Positions 1-20,777 of a stretch of 35,768 nucleotides of DNA are shown here, piece by piece (position 1 is the first letter of the stretch; each line of letters opens with the position of its first letter). This DNA comes from an uncultured Bacteroidales bacterium. Its GTDB lineage: Bacteria; Bacteroidota; Bacteroidia; Bacteroidales; UBA932. The notes beneath the pieces were generated by a model. The model searched no databases. It had not been told where the DNA came from and worked only from the letters and a program-made list of their open reading frames with translations. Both the position numbers and the translations under genes were made by a program. The stretch lies in contig CALUTT010000021.1 in assembly GCA_944323775.1 (NCBI GenBank), positions 1 through 35,768 of the forward strand. Reading direction: 5' to 3'.

Positions 1-3000
1 TTAAATGGTCTAACATGAAAATCAAAACCGACGAGGTTAACCGGTAATCCTATAAGTGTAGAATAGTAAACATCCTGAAACTTATTTATCCTAAATGTCC
101 CATTCTCATAATCAAACGTGTTTGAAAGCACTTCGCTGCCAGTAACAATTATAACATCTTTAATACTAGCTTTCATAAGTGAACGCAGTAATTTGATACC
201 TGATTTCACGCCACTCTTCACGATGCTGCCACCAGCAGTCGCGAACCCTTCGCCAAAAGCTATACCTATATCGAAGATATCCACATCCTTAAATGCATCC
301 CATGCTGATTTCTCCGTATTACCATCTCTTCTATAACTAATTAGATTTGAAATAACCTGTCCACCATAATTAATTACCGCAGAAATAGCACCGCCTACAA
401 GATTTACTACTATAATAGCCTTCCCATTAGCATCTACTAAATTTACGGGATTACCAGCACAGTAGGTATAGGGACTTACAGAACGGTACTTCTCCGCATC
501 AGGATCAAGAGTAATAAAACGCCCTGTCGACGGATCCATAAGCCGCGCATGAAAATCATAGAGGGAAGTATCAGGATTAAGTTCCTTACCGGTATACAAG
601 AACCGATTGTCACCACTTCCTGTACTGAAACGTAAGCCATATGGATAGTAATGGCTTATCTGCGTCACCTCTCCAGATTCAGAGGCAACGACCCTAATGC
701 TGCCGAGATGATCGCGTAAGAAGAAATAATATGAAACCTGAGAACCAGACAAAGAAGCATATGCCCCGTCAAGTAATATTCGTTTTAAACTACCGTCCTC
801 ATAGATACAGTTTCCTACGTAGTCAACAGTTTTCACAATTCCTCCTACGACAGTCTTTTCCTGCAGTTTACTCCCATCCGCAGCATATTTATAGTCAATT
901 ATCCTTCCATCAGAAAGTGTTATTTTCCGCGGCCGATCGAGCAAGTTGTAAGAAATAGTCCTTCCATCATATACAGACGAAATCTGACGTCCCTTGGCAT
1001 CGTATGCAAAAACTGCCGTTCCTATTCTGTCTATCCTATTACCTGAAATTACAAGAGAGAGCAAATTACTCCCTTCGGAAATTGATGTAAGATTGCTTCC
1101 AAGATCATACTGGTAAGAACCTGAAAACGAGGATTTAAAAGTTGTTCCCTCAAAATAAGAAGCTGAGATTAGTCGCGCTGCAAAATCGTATGAATAGCGG
1201 TATGTCCGAGACAGTTCTTCCATTCCAGCATTCCAAGTAATCTCACTTATGAAACCGCTCCACGATGGTACGTTTCCATCTTGATATTTCAGTGATTCGT
1301 TAAAAAGTTGTCCTCCTATACTCCTCAACATTGAACGGATATCATATGTCCTACTCTCAGAAAGGATGGGCAAGCCGTTTCTAGCATCTCCGATCAGGCG
1401 TCCTATCAGATCATACTGTTTATCTGCCACAGTCTTTATCTCTGCACCACCAATGCTATGTCCAATGGTTAGTAACCTACCCATTAAATCGTAAGTCATA
1501 ATCCTAACTTCTGTAATTGAACTGCCATCGTTTCCGACATGCACCGTCTTCTGTTTAAGAATATTGCCTAGAAAGTCATACTTAAAGTAGTCTTTTTCAA
1601 CCCCACCAAGATGTGTCGATTTCCTGATCTGAACGGGCCGTCCTTTATCATCATAGTAACTGACTTTCCATAAAAACACGTCTTGGGAACTATCATCAAG
1701 AACCTTTGTGAGACTTCCAGTCGCGACACCACGAACAGAAGAAGAATATTTTGCATCAAACTCCACCTCTGCTTCCGAATCATAACTTACATCAGAATCA
1801 GTATCAGCAGGGAAAGATGCATGGCCCAAGAAGTCGTATGAATCATAATAGTTGACATTCAATATACATATCTCAGAGCCCAACGATAACCCGCTTAAAA
1901 TATAACCTTTCAGAGTACCGCTATATGATGGACTCTCTGGAAGCGACACATAAACCGCAGTACTCAACAAAGGTTCATCCGTTACATTTATGTCTAATAT
2001 TGCCGTACCACTTAGGCACTCACGTCCAAATATATCGGTAAACACGAACGACCATTCGTTACTCTGACGCTGTACAGCATCTTGGCTCAGTATACGTCTA
2101 TTACCACTATCATATATGTAGTATGACCAGCCTCCACCAGGTAGTAGTTTCGCTATACAGTTTCCTCTGCTATCATATCGGTACAAATATGCAAGATGAC
2201 TTATCTCACTTTCCGACCATGCACTCTTGCCACTATTTTCAAGTTCTTGAACCAATTTCGGCGGAATGACAGCTGCAAGCCTGCCAAAACCGTCATACGC
2301 GAAATATGTATCTAGAGTATCAGAAGAATTACTACCGTAACACCTTTTCAATACTAGATTTCCATATACATCATGAAACTCCAAGGTAGTCCTTCCATCC
2401 TCGTCAATTGTCTTATTTACAACAAGGCTCCCCGAGGACGAAGCAGCTGCATTCCGCTCTAGCATAACGCTACCTGAACTGACAGATATGTGATATAGCC
2501 TAGCATATAGCGGCGATGATGAATCGTTGGCATTCGAAAGAAATGCATAGCACAGCTTCTTCTCACTCTGTCGCCAAGCAGAGCCAGCACCAAATTGCTC
2601 TAGTTTCCTTTCTTCTGGAGCATCGTCATATACAGACAAGATATGCCGCACCATATCATCTGTCGGATATACCTGATTTCCGCCTGATAATATTTGGGAT
2701 TCAGTTGCATACGTACCTGCGCTACGGCTTGCGTCAGATTGAATTGGAGCAGGAAGCCATTCTCGGTACAACCTACCAAAACCATCATAGTCTTTCCTTG
2801 AAACAACATCCCAACCTTGTCCTCCAGCATCAACGGCAATATTCTGTATGAGATTCCCTAATCCATCAAAATAGTCGATTGAGCGCTTACGGGAAGCTTT
2901 AGCTTCAGTTGTATAAGTATCCGTTATTACACTTCCTTTCTCATCAGAAGCACTAGGATAATTGTATACATATCCAACTGTAGCATTATCAGAATTGTTA

Positions 3001-6000
3001 TCCACTTCACATAATCGACCGCACGTATCATATTTATATGATTCACAAATTCCCCGATCATCAGTTTTTGCCGACACACCATCGAACACCATGTTGCAAT
3101 AAGACTCGACTTTGCTATCAGCAGGAAATATACGAATGTTATCTATTATGGATAAAAGAGAGCCTATGGTCACGGGGATGCCGTTATATTCTTGCTGCCT
3201 GAATTCCCAATGTCCTCCTGTAAATATAAAATAATCAAAAAGGTACTTTTTCCCGGTTTCTATAGGATAGCTAAGAGTAATGGGTCCTCGATGTCCCTTC
3301 GCACTATGAAAACCAACCGCTGTCTCAACCTCCGTCTCGAAATCATAAAATGCACTTCTCTGCGACACAGAAGACTCCTCATAATAACTATAATTAATTT
3401 GTCCAACATTTCTTGTATCATCAGTAGTCGTAAGTTCATCAGAGATATAAATCATCAACCTATGATTTCCAGCAGGGACTTCTACTTGTACTGAATTAGG
3501 ATACATATTCAGATATTCAGTCCATTTAGCATCAGGCTGCTGAGGCACAGAATACTGAACCATTCCATATGTTTCACCATCAAGCACTACCATAGCTAGA
3601 CACGCAAACTGATAATTAACACTAAGGCGGCAAGTCACGGTAGATGAGGTGTTACCGGTAGTAAAGCTTATATCCAAAGAAGGCGTCTGGGCATAGGTCA
3701 ATTGAAGAATACCATTTTTATAGGTATCACCTCCGTATCTAACTTTACGAGAAATCATTCCTAGGTAACAATGGCGAGCACCCCAATGATACTCACATTG
3801 AGAACCATCATTGAACCCTGCAAGCAGAACGTTGGCATACTCATCATATAATTTAAGTTCAATATCCGGAGCATCGCACAAATATGCAGACGGATTATTC
3901 TCATAGACGCCTACCGCAACCGGCGATGACAGTTTCGTCGTGAATATCCGATAAGGAACATAAATCATCCTTGCACTTTCGAGTTCCGGATTAATATCAA
4001 GTTCCTTGAAGATTAATTCTGTTCCTTTCACCACATAACCATCTATAATCTCTGCCTTACCTACTGGGATACCAAACATAACACCTTCATGCATCGTTCT
4101 ATAGATGTCACCTGTCCTATCTTCGGGATAATATATCCTTTCTTCCTTGTTATATCCACTCCTACTGATACGGGACGAATAGTTCAGCCTTGTACTTTCT
4201 TTGTATAAATATGAGTATGTATCTACAATATCATTGTCATCATCAGTGTACCTAGTAACTCTCTTCCAATTTAAAGCCGGATAAACACAAGGCCTTTCAA
4301 CATAGGAAATCAAAAAAATGTTTCCGCCACAATAATCATCTTGAGACACAGACTTCAAAACACCATCTCCCACATCGGTATAATTGTACTCTTCTTTCAC
4401 TACAACATCGCCATCCGACCTATATGTAGTCTTGCTCAGCAAAAGTCCCCGGTGTAAACTACCGGAAGTAAATTCAGGATGTATCGGGCAGCCTGAAACG
4501 AGCCCGTACTGACTTTTCGGCGCAGCATCCATATACTCTTCGCTGTCATAATTGCTAAAACGGTACTCTATGCTTCCTCCTGATGAATAAGTCTCTTTCA
4601 CATACCCATAGGTCACTACCCCGCAGTCGTTCTCTGAAAGAGGAAGGACTGGCAGTTCACTATACATACCAAATGAAGCTTCATAATCTAAAGTCTGCGT
4701 CAAAACCTTATGTCTGCCCTCTACATAATTAGTCGCAAGAGAGTTCATAACTCCAGACGAACGCCCATTCTCAAAATACTCGAAAGATCTTTGCTGCACA
4801 ATTTGTCCATCGGAATAATCGGTTATCTTTTTTATTCGCAAACCTCCTGCAATACTATCCACCGCTACTGAATTCACTGCGAATGGAAATACAGTAGCTT
4901 TTTTTGAATATCGATGAGCTTCATATTCATACTCAGTATAGCCTCCTGTAGGATAATTAATCGAGGTAAGAATCTCTGCCACCATATATTGTTCAGAAGG
5001 AGATCGTGTCTCGTCAAGAGTATGACCAAAAGACCCCAATTCGGAGCTATAATCGATATTATTATAATACCCCCATATATCTGTCTTGCGAGAGTTATAG
5101 GAGGGCATAGGTATAGTATTATAACCGAAACTATAACGCCTATCCTCGGATTCTCCGTCAAAGAACTGTACTGATAATAGTTTCAGACGCGTGTTCTCAT
5201 TTGACGTATAATTCAGGCGTATATCCCTGTGCGTACCCTCAATACGCACAAGTTGCTTATAGTAGTTATTTGTTTGAAAATCTTCGAAAGAGAATGGTCC
5301 AGGTGTCGCAATCGAACTGAAATCGCCAACATATTTGTTGAAATCTTCTTGATTAATATTATATGGCAGTTCAGTACTTTTTTCTGTTTCGAATATCAAT
5401 TCATCGCCAGACATAACACACAATATTCTTTTCAGGTATGATGGCAAGAGAAAAGAAAAATTTAGATTTACTTTAATATTTTGCTGATATCTTGCATACG
5501 TATCAGTATTCACTTCTATCGGATTTAAATCATCTGTTCTATAAAGTTCTCCATGATGCACATCTCTGAGTACAATAGGGACACCATCTTTCTCATATTC
5601 GAACTTGATGACTTCTCCGTTTGCCAGTTCTATCTTTGTCAGCATCCATGTGTTAGCCGTTGCAATTGCACGCCACAAGCCGGTATTCACCACTTCCGTA
5701 CCATTTATAACCAGATTAGGGAACTGAAACACCGAATACTCTATACAACTATCATCACCACCGAAACAATATAGGTTTCCTGATTTGTCAGAGATAACGA
5801 AATTTTTCAAGTACTTATATCTTCTTGCTTTCAATGGTTTATCACACTGTTCAGGATACATATCCAATGCCGTAGCGTCATTATCTTGCCCTATTTCATA
5901 ACTTACGAGTTTAATTGCAGATTCATTCTTAGATATAATCCTTATATCAGATTCCCCTACTATGCAGAACGATGCCGAGATTCCAGGAATATTTATCAAA

Positions 6001-6434
6001 TATTCGTCAGGTTCATATTCTTTAACAAAAGACGCAGACTCTCTCAATACAGATTCACTATTCCAATCCTTTTCAATCTGTGTCTCATACATATGATATA
6101 AATACCCTGGATCTTCGGAAGGTGTAATACCATGTCTGGCGTTATATTCTTCTTTAGACATCTCATCTTTCATACCGTTCACAACTCTCGTAATACAACC
6201 ACCAGCCTGCAAAGACCAACCTTGTCCCACCCAACCAGGATGCTGATCGGGACGATTACCACCAGTATAATACCTTAGGCTTACTGGAAGCTTATAGTTC
6301 TTTCCTCTAACTTCAGTTAATGGAACTGAAATATCCGCAAGACCATAATGCAAACTTACTGATGTACGTCCATAACGTCCAAGTTCTGACGCCGACGGTG
6401 ATATTATCTGCGGCAAATAATTAAAATCGCTCAT
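1..6434 (-). CDS. Giant RHS/YD-repeat protein, 3' end outside the window
   Basis: A single stop-free frame of 2,144 codons reads leftward from an ATG at 6434 and leaves the window at base 1, so the C-terminus is missing. Residues about 10-95 resemble the opening of Bacteroidetes YD-repeat proteins (SPSASELGRYG, then GWVGQGWSL and GGCITRVVNG). A beta-rich insert lies around residues 880-1090 (about 3,790-3,160). YD-type repeats such as YKYDTCGRL and YDGFGRL follow. The RHS-associated core sits at residues about 1905-1990 (DHLGSIRVV, YYPYGLRF, FLYTGKELNPDTSLYDFHAR, SPYTYCAGNPVNLVD). After it comes a different, hydrophobic then mixed tail of at least 150 residues, the place where RHS proteins carry their variable, often toxic, tip. 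No signal peptide is visible, and an in-frame stop at 6477-6479 rules out a longer N-terminus. The DNA is much more AT-rich than the genes to its right, which suggests acquisition. Role inferred: contact-dependent or secreted polymorphic toxin/adhesin. The effector type cannot be read here. Confidence 0.93.
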   Translation of the reverse strand, partial: MSDFNYLPQIISPSASELGRYGRTSVSLHYGLADISVPLTEVRGKNYKLPVSLRYYTGGNRPDQHPGWVGQGWSLQAGGCITRVVNGMKDEMSKEEYNARHGITPSEDPGYLYHMYETQIEKDWNSESVLRESASFVKEYEPDEYLINIPGISASFCIVGESDIRIISKNESAIKLVSYEIGQDNDATALDMYPEQCDKPLKARRYKYLKNFVISDKSGNLYCFGGDDSCIEYSVFQFPNLVINGTEVVNTGLWRAIATANTWMLTKIELANGEVIKFEYEKDGVPIVLRDVHHGELYRTDDLNPIEVNTDTYARYQQNIKVNLNFSFLLPSYLKRILCVMSGDELIFETEKSTELPYNINQEDFNKYVGDFSSIATPGPFSFEDFQTNNYYKQLVRIEGTHRDIRLNYTSNENTRLKLLSVQFFDGESEDRRYSFGYNTIPMPSYNSRKTDIWGYYNNIDYSSELGSFGHTLDETRSPSEQYMVAEILTSINYPTGGYTEYEYEAHRYSKKATVFPFAVNSVAVDSIAGGLRIKKITDYSDGQIVQQRSFEYFENGRSSGVMNSLATNYVEGRHKVLTQTLDYEASFGMYSELPVLPLSENDCGVVTYGYVKETYSSGGSIEYRFSNYDSEEYMDAAPKSQYGLVSGCPIHPEFTSGSLHRGLLLSKTTYRSDGDVVVKEEYNYTDVGDGVLKSVSQDDYCGGNIFLISYVERPCVYPALNWKRVTRYTDDDNDIVDTYSYLYKESTRLNYSSRISRSGYNKEERIYYPEDRTGDIYRTMHEGVMFGIPVGKAEIIDGYVVKGTELIFKELDINPELESARMIYVPYRIFTTKLSSPVAVGVYENNPSAYLCDAPDIELKLYDEYANVLLAGFNDGSQCEYHWGARHCYLGMISRKVRYGGDTYKNGILQLTYAQTPSLDISFTTGNTSSTVTCRLSVNYQFACLAMVVLDGETYGMVQYSVPQQPDAKWTEYLNMYPNSVQVEVPAGNHRLMIYISDELTTTDDTRNVGQINYSYYEESSVSQRSAFYDFETEVETAVGFHSAKGHRGPITLSYPIETGKKYLFDYFIFTGGHWEFRQQEYNGIPVTIGSLLSIIDNIRIFPADSKVESYCNMVFDGVSAKTDDRGICESYKYDTCGRLCEVDNNSDNATVGYVYNYPSASDEKGSVITDTYTTEAKASRKRSIDYFDGLGNLIQNIAVDAGGQGWDVVSRKDYDGFGRLYREWLPAPIQSDASRSAGTYATESQILSGGNQVYPTDDMVRHILSVYDDAPEERKLEQFGAGSAWRQSEKKLCYAFLSNANDSSSPLYARLYHISVSSGSVMLERNAAASSSGSLVVNKTIDEDGRTTLEFHDVYGNLVLKRCYGSNSSDTLDTYFAYDGFGRLAAVIPPKLVQELENSGKSAWSESEISHLAYLYRYDSRGNCIAKLLPGGGWSYYIYDSGNRRILSQDAVQRQSNEWSFVFTDIFGRECLSGTAILDINVTDEPLLSTAVYVSLPESPSYSGTLKGYILSGLSLGSEICILNVNYYDSYDFLGHASFPADTDSDVSYDSEAEVEFDAKYSSSVRGVATGSLTKVLDDSSQDVFLWKVSYYDDKGRPVQIRKSTHLGGVEKDYFKYDFLGNILKQKTVHVGNDGSSITEVRIMTYDLMGRLLTIGHSIGGAEIKTVADKQYDLIGRLIGDARNGLPILSESRTYDIRSMLRSIGGQLFNESLKYQDGNVPSWSGFISEITWNAGMEELSRTYRYSYDFAARLISASYFEGTTFKSSFSGSYQYDLGSNLTSISEGSNLLSLVISGNRIDRIGTAVFAYDAKGRQISSVYDGRTISYNLLDRPRKITLSDGRIIDYKYAADGSKLQEKTVVGGIVKTVDYVGNCIYEDGSLKRILLDGAYASLSGSQVSYYFFLRDHLGSIRVVASESGEVTQISHYYPYGLRFSTGSGDNRFLYTGKELNPDTSLYDFHARLMDPSTGRFITLDPDAEKYRSVSPYTYCAGNPVNLVDANGKAIIVVNLVGGAISAVINYGGQVISNLISYRRDGNTEKSAWDAFKDVDIFDIGIAFGEGFATAGGSIVKSGVKSGIKLLRSLMKASIKDVIIVTGSEVLSNTFDYENGTFRINKFQDVYYSTLIGLPVNLVGFDFHVRPF

Positions 6435-6461
6435 ATTGTTAATTATGTAATTAGTTGATTT

Positions 6462-6469
6462 CAAATATA
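6462..6469 (-). promoter_or_regulatory. Putative -7 element of the RHS gene
   Basis: On the minus strand the sequence reads TATATTTG, matching the Bacteroidetes TAnnTTTG element, 27 bases before the ATG. The nearest upstream TTG is 22 bases away, slightly longer than usual. Spacing is reasonable but the match is short. Confidence 0.4.
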
Positions 6470-14159: not shown

Positions 14160-14167
14160 TATCTTTG
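14160..14167 (+). promoter_or_regulatory. Putative -7 element of the riboswitch-btuB transcript
   Basis: TATCTTTG matches TAnnTTTG and lies directly before the conserved start of the cobalamin aptamer, as expected for a riboswitch leader. Confidence 0.6.
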
Positions 14168-14170
14168 CGC

Positions 14171-14386
14171 CCGGTTTGTGGTGCGATGTTTCCGGGAGGC
14201 CGTCCCGGACATCCTCAAAAGGGAATCCGGTCGGAATCCGGAACTGTGCCCGCAGCTGTATGTCCACTGCATGGTTACCGCTTCGCATGCCATTGCCCCG
14301 CAAGGGGTGAGAAGGCGCGGAAAGCCTGGACAAGTCAGAAGACCTGCCACTTACAAGTTGAACAGCAAGACTCGGGGGCAAGTCTT
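14171..14386 (+). ncRNA. Cobalamin (B12) riboswitch
   Basis: The leader shows the conserved cobalamin aptamer order. GGGAATCCGGT and GAATCCGGAACTGTGCCCGC lie around 14221-14253, GCATGCCATTGCC around 14285-14297, and the B12 box AGTCAGAAGACCTGCC at 14333-14348. Downstream, AAGACT and AGTCTT (14367-14386) form the P13 hairpin with loop CGGGGGCA. Its GGGCA can pair with TGCCC in L5 (14247-14251), the kissing interaction that senses the ligand. P13 ends 18 bases before the btuB ATG and no T-tract follows, so control of translation initiation is more likely than termination. High B12 should switch btuB off. Confidence 0.93.
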
Positions 14387-14404
14387 CTCAAGACGCAGAT
14401 CAAA

Positions 14405-16195
14405 ATGTTGTTTTCCATCATGATGATGGCGCTTATGCCAGTTGCACAGGCGCCAGACACCCTTCAGGGTGTCACGGTCGTAGCAGACCGGGGTGTAGTC
14501 GTATCCAGGACTGACACACTTTCCCTAGAAAACGTAAGCTCGGCGGACGAGCTTGTCTACATGGTACCCTCGCTCGGACTGAGCGACTATGGCGGACTCT
14601 CAGGACTGAAAAGCGTCAGCCTGCGCGGCCTGGGAAGCGCCCACACGGCCATATACATTGACGGTGTGAGGGTTTCTAACGTACAGAGCGGCCAGCCGGA
14701 CCTGAGCTTCATCGATTTCAGCTCGCTGTCGACTGCGGTTGTCGACTATGCCCAGAACAGCATAAGCTTCAATACGCGCAAGCCCGTTTTCACAGATAAC
14801 GGAATAAACGGGCGGGCAGGACTGGAAGCCGGTTCGTTCGGCACATGGATGCCGTCGGCCAGGCTCAATTTCAGACTCTCGGACAAAGTCAGCGCAAGCG
14901 CCGGACTGAGCGCTCTGTGGAGCAGAGGAGACTATCCCTGCCCTGACGGGAGCACAAGGACCAACAACGACATACGCCAGCTGAAGGCTGGAGCTGATTT
15001 CTGGGGAGCCCTCTCCAAGGGAGAATGGCATGCAAAGGCCTACGTCAACGATGCTGCAAGGGGTGTTCCCGGATCGGTGACATACCCGTCGGACGACCGG
15101 CAGAAAGACAGGAACGCATTCCTGCAGGGCAGCCTGCACAATGCCTTCTCAAGACTGTACACCCTTGACCTGAGCGCCAAGGCATCCATGGACGAAATGT
15201 ATTACCAGAGCGCCTGGGGGAACAACGAATACCTCCAGCGCAGCTTCCAGCTGAACTCGACGCACATATTCAGGATATCGGAAAAGATAGGAGCTTCGCT
15301 GAGCGCAGGCGCGGACTATGACGGACTCGACTCTGACACCTACACCGCGTCCCGCACAAATATCACCGGCGCGGCATCCGCATTTTTCAGGCTTGGAATG
15401 CTTGACGCAAACATCGGAGTCCAGTACGACTTGTGGGCTGACGCAGGAAAATCCTCCAGGCAGGCGCTCTCCCCTTCCGCAAATCTCACGCTTTCACTCA
15501 CCAGGGAACTGAGCATTAACGGATTCGCCAGAAGAGCGTACAGGGTCCCCACATTCAACGAACTGTATTACGTCGGCTACGGCAATCCTGAACTGAAGCC
15601 TGAAGACGCTCTGCTGAGCGGAATCGGGATAGAATGGAACCACGGTCTCGGAGAAGCTCTCAGGCTGTCGATGAGCCTCGACGGATTCTACAACCTGCTC
15701 AAAGACAGGATCACTTCCGCACCGACTGAGGAAGACCCCAATATCTGGCTGCCTTACAACATAGGAAGAATGCAGGCAGCAGGCGCAGATCTTGGGGTCA
15801 GCCTCAGATACGGCGGTCCACGGTGGGACTGGGGATTCAACCTGAAGTATGCCTTCCAGGATGCCACAGACCGTACCCCCGGCAGTTCCAGCTTCGGCAT
15901 GCAGGTCCCCTATATCGCAAGGCATTCTCTGAGCGCCGGCGCCGATGCTCTCTACAGAGGCTGGAGACTCGCCCTCGACTGGATACTCCGCAGCGGACGG
16001 TTCGACTCTTACGGACAGATGCCGGACTGGAACAGTCTCAACGCAGCCATAGAGAAAGAGTTCAGCCTCTCCGGGTCACTCGGAGTGAAGATCGGAATCA
16101 AGGCGACAGACCTGCTCGATACAAGGTATGAGGCAGTGAGGTACTATCCCCTTCCGGGACGGACAGTGCTCTGCAACATCTCGATAATGTTCTGA
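14405..16195 (+). CDS. btuB: BtuB-like TonB-dependent outer membrane receptor
   Basis: Outer-membrane receptor for corrinoids, energised by TonB. From ATG 14405 the protein is 596 residues. The signal peptide is MLFSIMMMALMPVAQA. A TonB-box-like stretch follows at DTLQGVTVVAD, then a plug domain (about residues 20-130, with SLRGLGSAHTAIYIDGVRVS) and a beta barrel ending in ISIMF with a terminal phenylalanine. The frame stays open back to 14165, but that part is the riboswitch, so the earlier start is rejected. The assignment to B12 rests on the riboswitch and on the BtuC-like gene that starts 3 bases after the stop. It is on the short side for this family. Confidence 0.9.
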   Translation: MLFSIMMMALMPVAQAPDTLQGVTVVADRGVVVSRTDTLSLENVSSADELVYMVPSLGLSDYGGLSGLKSVSLRGLGSAHTAIYIDGVRVSNVQSGQPDLSFIDFSSLSTAVVDYAQNSISFNTRKPVFTDNGINGRAGLEAGSFGTWMPSARLNFRLSDKVSASAGLSALWSRGDYPCPDGSTRTNNDIRQLKAGADFWGALSKGEWHAKAYVNDAARGVPGSVTYPSDDRQKDRNAFLQGSLHNAFSRLYTLDLSAKASMDEMYYQSAWGNNEYLQRSFQLNSTHIFRISEKIGASLSAGADYDGLDSDTYTASRTNITGAASAFFRLGMLDANIGVQYDLWADAGKSSRQALSPSANLTLSLTRELSINGFARRAYRVPTFNELYYVGYGNPELKPEDALLSGIGIEWNHGLGEALRLSMSLDGFYNLLKDRITSAPTEEDPNIWLPYNIGRMQAAGADLGVSLRYGGPRWDWGFNLKYAFQDATDRTPGSSSFGMQVPYIARHSLSAGADALYRGWRLALDWILRSGRFDSYGQMPDWNSLNAAIEKEFSLSGSLGVKIGIKATDLLDTRYEAVRYYPLPGRTVLCNISIMF

Positions 16196-17973: not shown

Positions 17974-18492
17974 TTGAAAAGGGAAATCTATCTCGCAGCC
18001 GGTTGCTTTTGGGGCGCCGAACATTATTTCAAGCAGATCCGCGGCGTGGTATCCACGGAAGTCGGATATGCCAACGGAAACATATTCCATCCCACCTATG
18101 AGGAAGTCTCGACGGACTTCACCGGCTACGCCGAGACCGTACGCGTAGTATTCGATACCGATGTGATAGGTCTCGAGCGCATTCTCCAGTTCTATTTCAA
18201 GGCGATAGACCCGCTCAGCCTGAACCGGCAGGGCCCCGATACCGGGACAAGGTACCGTACCGGCATATACTACACCGATCCGGCAGACCTCCCTTCGATC
18301 CGCAACATCTACGACCGTGTAGCCGGAGAGCTCAAGGCTCCGCTCGCCGTCGAGGTCAAACCTCTCAAGAATTTCTACAAGGCTGAGGAATGCCATCAGG
18401 ACTATCTTGACAAGCACCCTGACGGATACTGCCATATTCCGAAGGCGCTGATGGAATTCGCCCGCAGCGCATCAGACATCTCCAACGACTGA
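17974..18492 (+). CDS. msrA: Peptide methionine sulfoxide reductase MsrA
   Basis: Repairs oxidised methionine (S-sulfoxide form) in proteins. The 172 residues are full length for MsrA. Near the N-terminus AAGCFWGAEHYF carries the catalytic Cys. Then come TEVGYANGN, TYEEVSTDFTGYAET, DPLSLNRQGPDTGTRYRTGI and, near the end, FYKAEECHQDYLDKHPDGYC, where further cysteines could act as resolving residues. The only in-frame start after the stop at 17959 is TTG at 17974, which leaves just seven residues before the first strand. No separate promoter is evident between tRNA-Ala and this gene, so it may be transcribed together with the tRNA. The PriA-like gene follows 20 bases downstream. Confidence 0.93.
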   Translation: MKREIYLAAGCFWGAEHYFKQIRGVVSTEVGYANGNIFHPTYEEVSTDFTGYAETVRVVFDTDVIGLERILQFYFKAIDPLSLNRQGPDTGTRYRTGIYYTDPADLPSIRNIYDRVAGELKAPLAVEVKPLKNFYKAEECHQDYLDKHPDGYCHIPKALMEFARSASDISND

Positions 18493-18512: not shown

Positions 18513-20090
18513 ATGCAAGCCAGCTTCATACAGGTTCTCCTGCCGCTGAAGATCCGGTGGATGCCTTTCTACCGTACGGACAGAGCGGTGGAGCCGGGAA
18601 CAGCCGTCAATGTCGTGTTCTCGGGCAGAGAATACACTGGCATAGTATGGGGCTCCGGAAAGCCAGGGCCTGAACTTCAGGAAAACAAGATCAGAGACAT
18701 ACTCCGCATCAGAGACGACATCCCCGCCATTTCCGTTACGGAAATGAAACTGTGGGAGTTCATGGCCTCATACTATCTCTGCACAGTCGGGGAGGTTTTC
18801 AAAGCTGCATACCCGGCCCTGCGTATCAGGGGGGAAAACATGTATTCCTCCAGAATCGCAAGACTGAGACAGAGGGCGGAGACACTGCGTGCCCAGCTGT
18901 CGCGGCGGCACAGGGAGGACATCAGGCTCAGACTCGAAGAGTCCCTTAGAGCGGTAGAAGCTGAACTGGAATGCCATGAGAGCATGCCGCAGCTCCCGAC
19001 TGCACCAGCGGCCGCGGCGCCGCAGCCGCTGCTGATCCAGGGGAACGACAGGACAGACAGATACCGGATGCTGGCCAGGCAGGCCCTCTCTGACAACAGG
19101 CAGGTTCTTGTCCTGACCCCCGAAATCGCATTCTGCAACAGAATGGCTGAAGAGCTCGGCCATAGTTTCGGCCAGCGCCTGTACTGTGTCAATGCCGACA
19201 GGAGTGCCGGATACAGACAGTCCGTCTCAGGGGTCCTGCGATCCGGAAGTCCGGCAGTGGTAGTAGGTACAAGATCATCGGTATTCCTTCCGTTTACAAG
19301 ACTCGGCCTGGTGATAATCGACGAGGAGCAGGACAGTTCGTACAAACAGGAAGACCCGGCACCGAGATACAACGCCCGCGACACGGCTGTGTTCCTGGCG
19401 TCGATACACGGAGCCGCCGCCGTACTCGGCTCTGCTCTCCCCTCTCTGGAGAGCCTGCTGAACGTCCGCAACGGCAAATACTCCTGCGAATATACAGGAC
19501 GGCACGGTGCAGATCCTGCTTTCATCGACATCCGCGCTGAAAAGCGCAAGAACGGCATGCTCGGCCCGATATCCCGCAAGCTGGTATCACAGATACACTC
19601 TGCCGGTTGCCGCGTACTGCTGCTGCGCGGATGGGAAGACAGGCAGGAGCTTGACTCCAGAGTCAGCACCCTCTTTCCGGACGATGACGTCTGCGTGACT
19701 ACCTTGTCAGAACTGAAACGCCTCGGCCCGCGTGGAGCGGGAATCATCGCCGTCCTGCAGATCGAGGCTTTCTGTCCATCGGATGATTTCAGGAGCGACG
19801 AAAGAGCGCTGCAGACGGTAGCCATGCTCGGAGGGCTCGCGCCAAGAGTCATAGTGCAGACCTCTATGCCGGAAAAGTTCGCTCCGGAAAGGGGAACCGA
19901 CGCCCTGCTCGAAGAGAGACGGGAGTTCTCCTTCCCGCCCTACACCAGGCTGGTCGAGATAAGAAAGCGCGAAGACGGATCAACTACTGAGCGCCATTTC
20001 CTTCCAAAGGACTCCACTCTCCAGCAGCGCAAGGCCATGATAGCCGAGACCGTACCCGAAGATTGCTACGTAGATGTCGATCCCATATAG
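18513..20090 (+). CDS. priA: Degenerate PriA-like primosomal protein N'
   Basis: PriA restarts stalled replication forks and is normally a zinc-binding 3'-to-5' helicase of about 730-820 residues. This protein has 525. The N-terminal DNA-binding domain is recognisable (FIQVLLPLKIRWMPFY, EPGTAVNVVFSGREYTGIVW). So are VLTPEIAF, VVVGTRSSVFLPF, LVIIDEEQDSSYKQEDPAPR (motif II, residues 267-286), LGSALPSLESLLNV and a C-terminal CYVDVDPI. The Walker A loop, expected near residues 176-183 as GVTGSGKT, reads QGNDRTDR. The paired cysteines of the zinc domain are absent (only C366, C394, C421 and C518 after residue 350). The GRAGR of motif VI is replaced by LGGLAPR at 439-445. The frame is intact, so this is a maintained but probably ATPase-inactive protein. 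It is 6 bases upstream of the histidine-phosphatase gene. Confidence 0.88.
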   Translation: MQASFIQVLLPLKIRWMPFYRTDRAVEPGTAVNVVFSGREYTGIVWGSGKPGPELQENKIRDILRIRDDIPAISVTEMKLWEFMASYYLCTVGEVFKAAYPALRIRGENMYSSRIARLRQRAETLRAQLSRRHREDIRLRLEESLRAVEAELECHESMPQLPTAPAAAAPQPLLIQGNDRTDRYRMLARQALSDNRQVLVLTPEIAFCNRMAEELGHSFGQRLYCVNADRSAGYRQSVSGVLRSGSPAVVVGTRSSVFLPFTRLGLVIIDEEQDSSYKQEDPAPRYNARDTAVFLASIHGAAAVLGSALPSLESLLNVRNGKYSCEYTGRHGADPAFIDIRAEKRKNGMLGPISRKLVSQIHSAGCRVLLLRGWEDRQELDSRVSTLFPDDDVCVTTLSELKRLGPRGAGIIAVLQIEAFCPSDDFRSDERALQTVAMLGGLAPRVIVQTSMPEKFAPERGTDALLEERREFSFPPYTRLVEIRKREDGSTTERHFLPKDSTLQQRKAMIAETVPEDCYVDVDPI

Positions 20091-20096
20091 AATGCC

Positions 20097-20777
20097 ATGA
20101 CAAAAACAATCTACCTTCTCAGACATGCCCAGACCCGGTGCAACGTTCACAGCGAAATCATAGGAGGACGCAGTTCATCCGTTCCTCTCACTGAAACCGG
20201 GACGGCTCTGGCCAGGCAGGCAGGGGATGCACTCAGGGCTCTCGACCCGTATTTCGACGCCATATTCTGTTCGACAGCACTCAGAGCCAGAGAGACATTC
20301 CAGTGCCTTGGCCTCAGGCACGGAGAGCATTATGGCTCGGCTTCATTTTCGGAACAGCTCGAAGAACTTGACCAGGGAGAATGGACCGGACTCGTCAGGG
20401 CAGAGGTCTACACACCCGAGATGGTACGGCGTCTGGAAAGGGAGAACCCGTTCTTCACACCTCCCGGAGGTGAAAGCCAGCACGATGTGGAGGTGAGGAT
20501 GACCGAATTCATCAGAAAGGAAATCCTGACACGCCCGGGAGACGGGACCTTCCTGATTGTCGGACACGGGAATGCATTCAGGTGCCTGCTGCGCGGCATC
20601 CTCGACTCTGATGCCAGCGTCACATACAAGATCGGTATCGACAACCTGTCTACAATCAGGCTGAGGCATGACACTGAACGCGGATGGAGCATAGACTGGA
20701 TAAACCGCAGCGTCACTGACGGTTTTTTCAGTGGAATGGTTAAGAATACCGGGGAAACCGGTCAGTGCGTCAGGTGA
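20097..20777 (+). CDS. Histidine phosphatase family protein
   Basis: A 226-residue member of the phosphoglycerate-mutase-like branch-1 histidine phosphatases. The phosphate-accepting motif is LLRHAQTRCN at residues 7-16 and the second catalytic histidine lies in IVGHGNAFRCLLRG. FCSTALRARETFQCLG and LEELDQGEWTG are the other family landmarks. Members dephosphorylate sugars, alpha-ribazole phosphate or other small molecules; the sequence alone does not decide which. It follows the PriA-like gene by 6 bases and probably belongs to the msrA operon. The last 30 or so residues extend beyond the core fold. Confidence 0.87.
   Translation: MTKTIYLLRHAQTRCNVHSEIIGGRSSSVPLTETGTALARQAGDALRALDPYFDAIFCSTALRARETFQCLGLRHGEHYGSASFSEQLEELDQGEWTGLVRAEVYTPEMVRRLERENPFFTPPGGESQHDVEVRMTEFIRKEILTRPGDGTFLIVGHGNAFRCLLRGILDSDASVTYKIGIDNLSTIRLRHDTERGWSIDWINRSVTDGFFSGMVKNTGETGQCVR

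Follow-up and report, generated by a model that had tools for sequence, protein, structure and literature searches.

The closest described systems to the protein treated here are the PriA proteins of Escherichia coli, of the Deinococcus-Thermus group, and of the Actinobacteria. In the E. coli fork complex the 3' DNA-end-binding domain (3'BD) holds the 3' end of the leading strand and helicase domain 1 wedges a loop into the junction, while the cysteine-rich zinc-binding region (CRR), HD2, and the C-terminal domain (CTD) frame the lagging-strand pore, with the CRR also docking PriB (PMC10175261). A triple mutant of the CRR docking site loads no DnaB, so that a PriA without the CRR could be unable to act as a loader, and the ATPase-site mutant K230A has been used in DnaB-loading assays, which makes the motor dispensable for loading on that substrate (PMC10175261). 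The K230R mutant of E. coli PriA is ATPase-dead, and E. coli is viable with an ATPase-dead form (PMC4504706), which makes it puzzling that almost every PriA is an active helicase. A pseudohelicase PriA is already known in Deinococcus: the D. radiodurans protein shows neither ATPase nor helicase activity yet binds both forks and DnaB, the Deinococcus-Thermus proteins carry a natural Lys-to-Arg change at the Walker lysine together with a poor motif II, and D. radiodurans is described as having no clear PriB or DnaT (PMC4504706). Actinobacterial PriA has been called “smaller and very divergent” (PMC1193525). A literature search, outside which most subscription journals lay, returned the Deinococcus case and the remark on Actinobacteria but no report of the genus-level PriA loss described below; what appears to be new in our alignments is the repeated loss inside one genus, the excision of the CRR as a unit, the intermediates, and the tie between both losses.

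The stretch of DNA analyzed here (the window; 35,768 nucleotides) is one whole contig of a Bacteroidales assembly of 1.71 Mb in 35 contigs, judged 94.5% complete. Its forward strand carries, at 18513-20090, a frame of 525 aa with an ATG start and zero internal stops, which the alignments identify as a priA orthologue by descent, and which we refer to as a degenerate PriA or pseudohelicase. We judge it an even call whether the following account holds as a whole: PriA would have turned motorless at least twice in one Bacteroidales genus, the CRR being removed whole, with almost the same borders each time, and the P-loop eroding afterward, up to a fixed Lys-to-Arg change in the larger lineage, and restart would be served by a passive scaffold with DnaB and DciA, neither motor nor zinc domain being needed for the main job. 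The features of the window that bear on it are as follows.

17974..18492, + strand: peptide methionine sulfoxide reductase, upstream neighbour (Pfam)
18513..20090, + strand: degenerate PriA, pseudohelicase; the only PriA detected in the genome
18531..18815, + strand: 3'BD (PF17764); of 19 columns conserved in canonical PriA, 16 persist in 80% or more of the degenerate rows
18825..19007 (approximate borders), + strand: charged, coiled-coil-like linker (by eye) at the E. coli winged-helix region (alignments)
19038..19064, + strand: eroded P-loop QGNDRTDRY, Walker lysine replaced by Arg180 (alignments with genus relatives)
19263..19295, + strand: motif Ib VGTRSSVFLPF, residues 251-261, kept (alignment)
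19314..19331, + strand: motif II, reading IIDEEQ with Gln in place of His; all 50 degenerate rows share E272 (alignment)
19335..19382, + strand: SSYKQEDPAPRYNARD, region of the aromatic-rich loop, kept (alignment)
19425..19457, + strand: motif III LGSALPSLESL, residues 305-315, kept (alignment)
19539..19583, + strand: EKRKNGMLGPISRKL, kept (alignment)
19626..19646, + strand: scar RGWEDRQ replacing the excised zinc-binding CRR of about 60 residues and 8 Cys (alignment)
19785..19802, + strand: DFRSDE, in which all 50 degenerate rows share F, R, the second D, and E (alignment)
19824..19859, + strand: remnant of motif VI, GRxGR loop deleted (alignment)
19935..19949, + strand: PPYTR of the C-terminal domain, kept (alignment)
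20073..20084, + strand: C-terminus DVDP, residues 521-524; second D and P invariant in 50/50 degenerate rows (alignment)
20097..20777, + strand: histidine phosphatase, downstream neighbour (Pfam)

An earlier, sequence-only reading of this DNA had described an intact frame in which many PriA motifs survive, and VGTRSSVFLPF, IIDEEQDSSYKQ (residues 268-279), LGSALPSLESL, and DVDP were all located in the 525 open residues, along with SYKQ-PAPRYNARD and KNGMLG. The SSYKQEDPAPRYNARD region we take to be the aromatic-rich loop that is the counterpart of the helicase-domain-1 loop wedged in the fork junction by the E. coli protein. Walker B, normally DEEH, reads DEEQ, a position at which Q or N is also found in 15 of 76 canonical sequences. 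The residues invariant in all 50 degenerate sequences extend past the 3'BD, into DFRxDE, PPYTR, DVDP, and KxGMxG. Among profile models, PF17764 (PriA_3primeBD) matches above its cut-off (E 7.9e-18; 64.5 against 22.7 bits), TIGR00595 falls below its own (159.3 against 230.35 bits), as do the PRK05580 models (best scores up to 187), and the DEAD match is sub-threshold in the Pfam search; that this protein lies under the PriA equivalog cut-off though it is the PriA of its genome is a warning for annotation. A profile built from 23 degenerate proteins (the window protein and 22 relatives) aligns to solved PriA structures over two stretches, and in comparison with E. coli and Klebsiella PriA (PDB 4nl4, 6dgd, 6dcr, 8fak) the 3'BD, the helicase-domain-1 core, and the DFR and PP segments align with the window protein, whereas the segments of the ATPase site, the CRR, and HD2 are absent from it.

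Compared with its relatives in the genus, the protein lacks a normal P-loop, the whole CRR, the motif V and VI segments, and the central part of the C-terminal domain, where a segment after PPYTR is deleted. At the P-loop, GVTGSGKTEIY has become G-NDRTDRY through a three-residue deletion and a Lys-to-Arg change, leaving GNDRT where the Walker A pattern GxxxxGKT would stand; the CRR segment, with eight cysteines in its normal form, has been excised and contains none; and the GRxGR of motif VI is gone. The degenerate Walker A (QGNDRTDRY), the absent zinc-domain cysteines, and the lost motif VI that had been proposed earlier were thus all borne out by alignment. The change to Arg180 repeats the natural Lys-to-Arg change of Deinococcus-Thermus PriA. 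Unlike Deinococcus PriA, however, the window protein has lost motif VI and part of the CTD as well, and its state is patchy within one genus; moreover, Zn_ribbon_PriA was found in two control genomes, Thermus composti and Deinobacterium chartae, but not in the window genome. The K230R and K230A mutants of E. coli are laboratory analogues of the P-loop loss only. The analogy with K230R that the earlier reading had drawn therefore stands for the P-loop and does not extend to the CRR, since DnaB loading in E. coli depends on the residues with which the CRR docks PriB (PMC10175261).

The actinobacterial proteins offer a further comparison. To our knowledge they lack the helicase motifs, and PRK14873 (NCBIfam), presumably the actinobacterial PriA model, matches residues 25-321 of the window protein at 68.8 bits, below its cut-off of 812. 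In a Corynebacterium glutamicum control the 3'BD was found and the PriA zinc ribbon was not, as in the window genome, so lack of the motor and lack of the CRR may coincide in Actinobacteria too; the ribbon result is weak evidence, since a Caulobacter vibrioides control with a 3'BD match also returned no ribbon.

A TIGR00595 profile search detected no second PriA in the assembly, its other three places being assigned to RecG, to a larger RecG-related frame read as Mfd, and, by eye, to UvrB; on this check, which the earlier reading had called for, the window protein replaces a normal PriA there. The PriA zinc ribbon (PF18319) was likewise searched for across the genome of the window and not found, and a split priA with its CRR encoded elsewhere was rejected on the same assembled sequence. 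A gamma-type PriB model, searched in the window genome only, gave no match, a likeness to D. radiodurans. The open frame is not a matter of chance, given that in a neutral simulation of it none of 500 copies stayed open at 0.3 changes per site, nor any of 500 at 0.5; at lower drift 1 of 500 remained open at 0.1 and 21 of 500 at 0.05 changes per site.

The two losses are tied to each other across the genus. We aligned 129 sequences, 128 from the genus and one (L025) from another family, omitting an edge piece of G236, and classed 126 of them by their CxxC pairs into 76 canonical rows (three to five pairs, L025 included) and 50 degenerate rows (none or one), with none between; the class is defined by cysteines, and the remaining features are independent of it. 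The 76 and 50 rows come from 76 and 50 different genomes, and the degenerate ones represent one species each. In canonical rows the CRR segment spans 65-103 residues, 7-9 of them Cys, whereas degenerate rows have 3-9 residues there and no Cys; the Walker lysine is present in 76/76 of the former (in one of these, L028, the contig ends within the P-loop) against 4/50 of the latter. Among the classed rows there is no protein that has lost the P-loop and kept the CRR, and CRR-less rows that retain the lysine do exist, with G078 reading APAGSGKT and G289 GVSGSGKK; from this pattern the CRR seems to have been excised first, or at the same time, and the P-loop to have eroded after. Both degenerate lineages are left with the same short stub after the excision. 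In the larger lineage the Walker lysine column holds Arg in 41 of 44 rows and C, S, and Q once each, the loop being otherwise variable, and in the smaller nested group of six rows it holds K four times, R once, and T once. Whether close relatives encode a canonical Walker A, as a sequencing error would have it, is hence answered in the negative: lysine occurs in 0/44 rows of the larger lineage, though canonical PriA with its CRR occurs in other species of the genus. Degenerate proteins are mostly 490-660 aa long, the longest being L141 (G351:C77) with 740 aa in its stop-to-stop frame. At the scar, an RGWE-like motif has W in 35/50 degenerate rows, while R stands there in 76/76 canonical rows, adjoining the CRR start; the motif is a possible new contact or fold cap.

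The frequency of the degenerate state was counted in 101 genomes, comprising 100 of the genus that are at least 95% complete and the window genome. PriA is degenerate in 32 of these, canonical in 65, canonical and frameshifted in one (G367), represented by contig-edge pieces in two (G022 and G180), and absent in one (G259, the genome without a 3'BD). The 3'BD was found in 100/101 genomes, in one place each apart from G236, which has two, and the zinc-ribbon search was positive in 66, none of which is degenerate, and negative in 35. A wider draw of 400 genomes of the genus gave the 3'BD in 346 and none in 54, of which six belong to the 151 good-quality ones. Across the order (140 genomes, 107 genera), judged by frame length alone, PriA is at least 667 aa long except in the window genome and in one frame of 313 aa. 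In the frameshifted case (L085; G367:C13:36189-39089) a canonical PriA with Walker A breaks after 330 aa and its zinc ribbon lies further on in another frame, through either sequencing error or early loss.

The gene trees indicate repeated origins of the degenerate state within the genus. In the DnaB tree, which covers 100 genomes (G071 lacks a DnaB match) and has 97 of them labeled as 66 canonical and 31 degenerate, four changes of PriA state are required (bootstrap range 3-4), two of which are forced by well-supported branches. A RecG tree of 20 chosen genomes requires three, and a PriA tree, built by a quick method on shared columns with the P-loop and motif II excluded, requires two. A single origin was rejected on DnaB (AU p 7e-8) and on RecG as well (AU p 1e-4), the groups for the AU test having been defined by trait and the DnaB tree having been inspected beforehand. 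The smaller degenerate group, composed of G165, G289, G277, and G078 together with G019 and G028 (the last two placed by PriA distances only), is nested among canonical species and, for that reason, is probably the younger. For the larger lineage, seven rows stand in an unresolved fork with canonical rows in the DnaB tree, and it may not form a single clade. The RecG tree places G334 and G061, both with canonical PriA, inside the small degenerate group, implying either more than one loss there or a re-gain of a canonical copy. The PriA proteins of these two genomes (L154 and L151, respectively) are canonical but short, at 646-656 aa.

Nei-Gojobori counts indicate that selection on the degenerate proteins is real, though weaker than on the canonical ones. 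In all close pairs (dS 0.05-0.8, none of which includes the window gene), dN/dS spans 0.08-0.38 with a median of 0.29 for 34 degenerate pairs, against a median of 0.10 for 15 canonical pairs; when the pairs are restricted to non-overlapping ones, the median is 0.18 for six degenerate pairs (range 0.08-0.32) against 0.10 for seven canonical pairs (range 0.06-0.27). For the window gene, the pairs listed give about 0.34-0.40 at a dS of 1.35-1.59, where dS is poor, and the distant pairs among those listed reach about 0.7 in the degenerate class and about 0.5 in the canonical, with dS near saturation. The raised dN/dS and the lesser conservation of helicase domain 1 point to partly relaxed selection. 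We took the 150 columns whose conservation among canonical rows reaches 95% or more (three rows excluded; some columns fall outside the named stretches); those that persist in 80% or more of the degenerate rows number 16/19 in the 3'BD, 33/59 in helicase domain 1, 2/29 in HD2/CRR (where 23/29 are kept in under 20% of the degenerate rows), 7/17 at the end of HD2, and 11/15 in the C-terminal part. Mean pairwise identity in degenerate and canonical rows is 0.48 vs 0.50 for the 3'BD and 0.45 vs 0.63 for helicase domain 1, and the median Pfam score of the 3'BD is 65.0 bits (n=32) vs 63.1 bits (n=66; p 0.29). Recent decay in a single strain, which had been named as a refutation of the earlier reading, is rejected by the 32/101 genomes that share the state and by the dN/dS of the 34 close pairs.

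The proteins that would work with a motorless PriA are present almost throughout. DnaB was found in 100/101 genomes (absent from G071) and DciA in 100/101, with 95 over the cut-off, the window genome included; the genome without a DciA match, G152, is small (1.5 Mb), has a canonical PriA, and sits on a very long DnaB branch. A search for a DnaC-like loader gave one IstB match over the cut-off, in a 505-aa frame, and two weaker ones. In E. coli, priA helicase mutants interact with recG, and RecG might have been expected to be lost along with the PriA motor, an idea refuted by its presence over the cut-off in 98/101 genomes, again including that of the window.

The reading to which we incline, with somewhat better than even confidence, is that the motorless PriA is a replication-restart protein, a fork reader that hands on DnaB. 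The sequences for 3'-end binding and for the junction loop are kept and the pore-framing parts cut back, and a static fork reader is likeliest. Such a protein would recognize abandoned forks and D-loops through the leading-strand 3' end, wedge its helicase-domain-1 loop into the junction, leave the lagging strand wound, and act as a static landing platform for DnaB, which would be loaded with DciA, while forks with a duplex lagging strand at the junction would have to be resected or opened by another helicase, RecG being present. Arg180 might pair with the motif II acid and so keep the empty site locked, or it might touch a DNA phosphate. The loader role that the earlier reading proposed is one that we infer for the window protein, and a different outcome, unlikely in our view, is that it still binds forks or 3' ends and loads no DnaB, serving as a repurposed cap, guard, or brake on D-loops while restart proceeds otherwise. 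The loss of the CRR and HD2 segments would fit this, given that loading in E. coli needs the CRR docking site (PMC10175261), as would the fact that the 3'BD is the best-kept part; yet the invariant residues reach beyond the 3'BD, DnaB and DciA are each near-universal in the sample, and no other PriA was detected in the window assembly. Still less probable is a split activity, with a recruited helicase supplying unwinding and perhaps ATP-dependent loading, for which RecG would be a candidate by its presence; RecG accompanies canonical PriA too, however, and so does not track the loss of the motor, and the genes next to priA do not encode helicases.

That the gene is decaying slowly under relaxed selection and is on its way out strikes us as very improbable, even though its dN/dS is some two to three times the canonical median, ratios climb to about 0.7 in the distant, dS-saturated degenerate pairs listed, and the 3'BD is undetectable in G259 and in the 54 genomes of the wider draw, six of them of good quality. 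Against decay, 50/50 degenerate frames are open to a C-terminal DxDP or VVDP, an outcome that neutral drift at 0.3 changes per site did not once produce in 500 copies, the 3'BD is as conserved as in canonical proteins, and the state recurs in 50 species. An assembly or sequencing artefact has a negligible chance of being the explanation: relatives with titled records are mostly metagenome-assembled, but 50 proteins from 50 genomes share the same excision and the same invariants, which refutes it.

The PriA motor is apparently dispensable in nature, about a third of the sampled species of the genus having lost it, and relatives with and without the motor inside one genus allow paired comparisons of what the motor and the CRR each do. 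A restart protein this small may also lend itself better to reconstitution with DnaB and DciA than does the PriA-PriB-DnaT-DnaC system of E. coli. Elsewhere in the window, a 2154-aa open frame at 3-6464 on the minus strand runs off the contig end and was read by eye as an RHS-repeat protein, and a cobalamin riboswitch at 14162-14365 overlaps the start given for a TonB-dependent receptor frame (14165-16195), which is followed by a FecCD transporter; owing to this overlap, the real start of the receptor frame is probably downstream.
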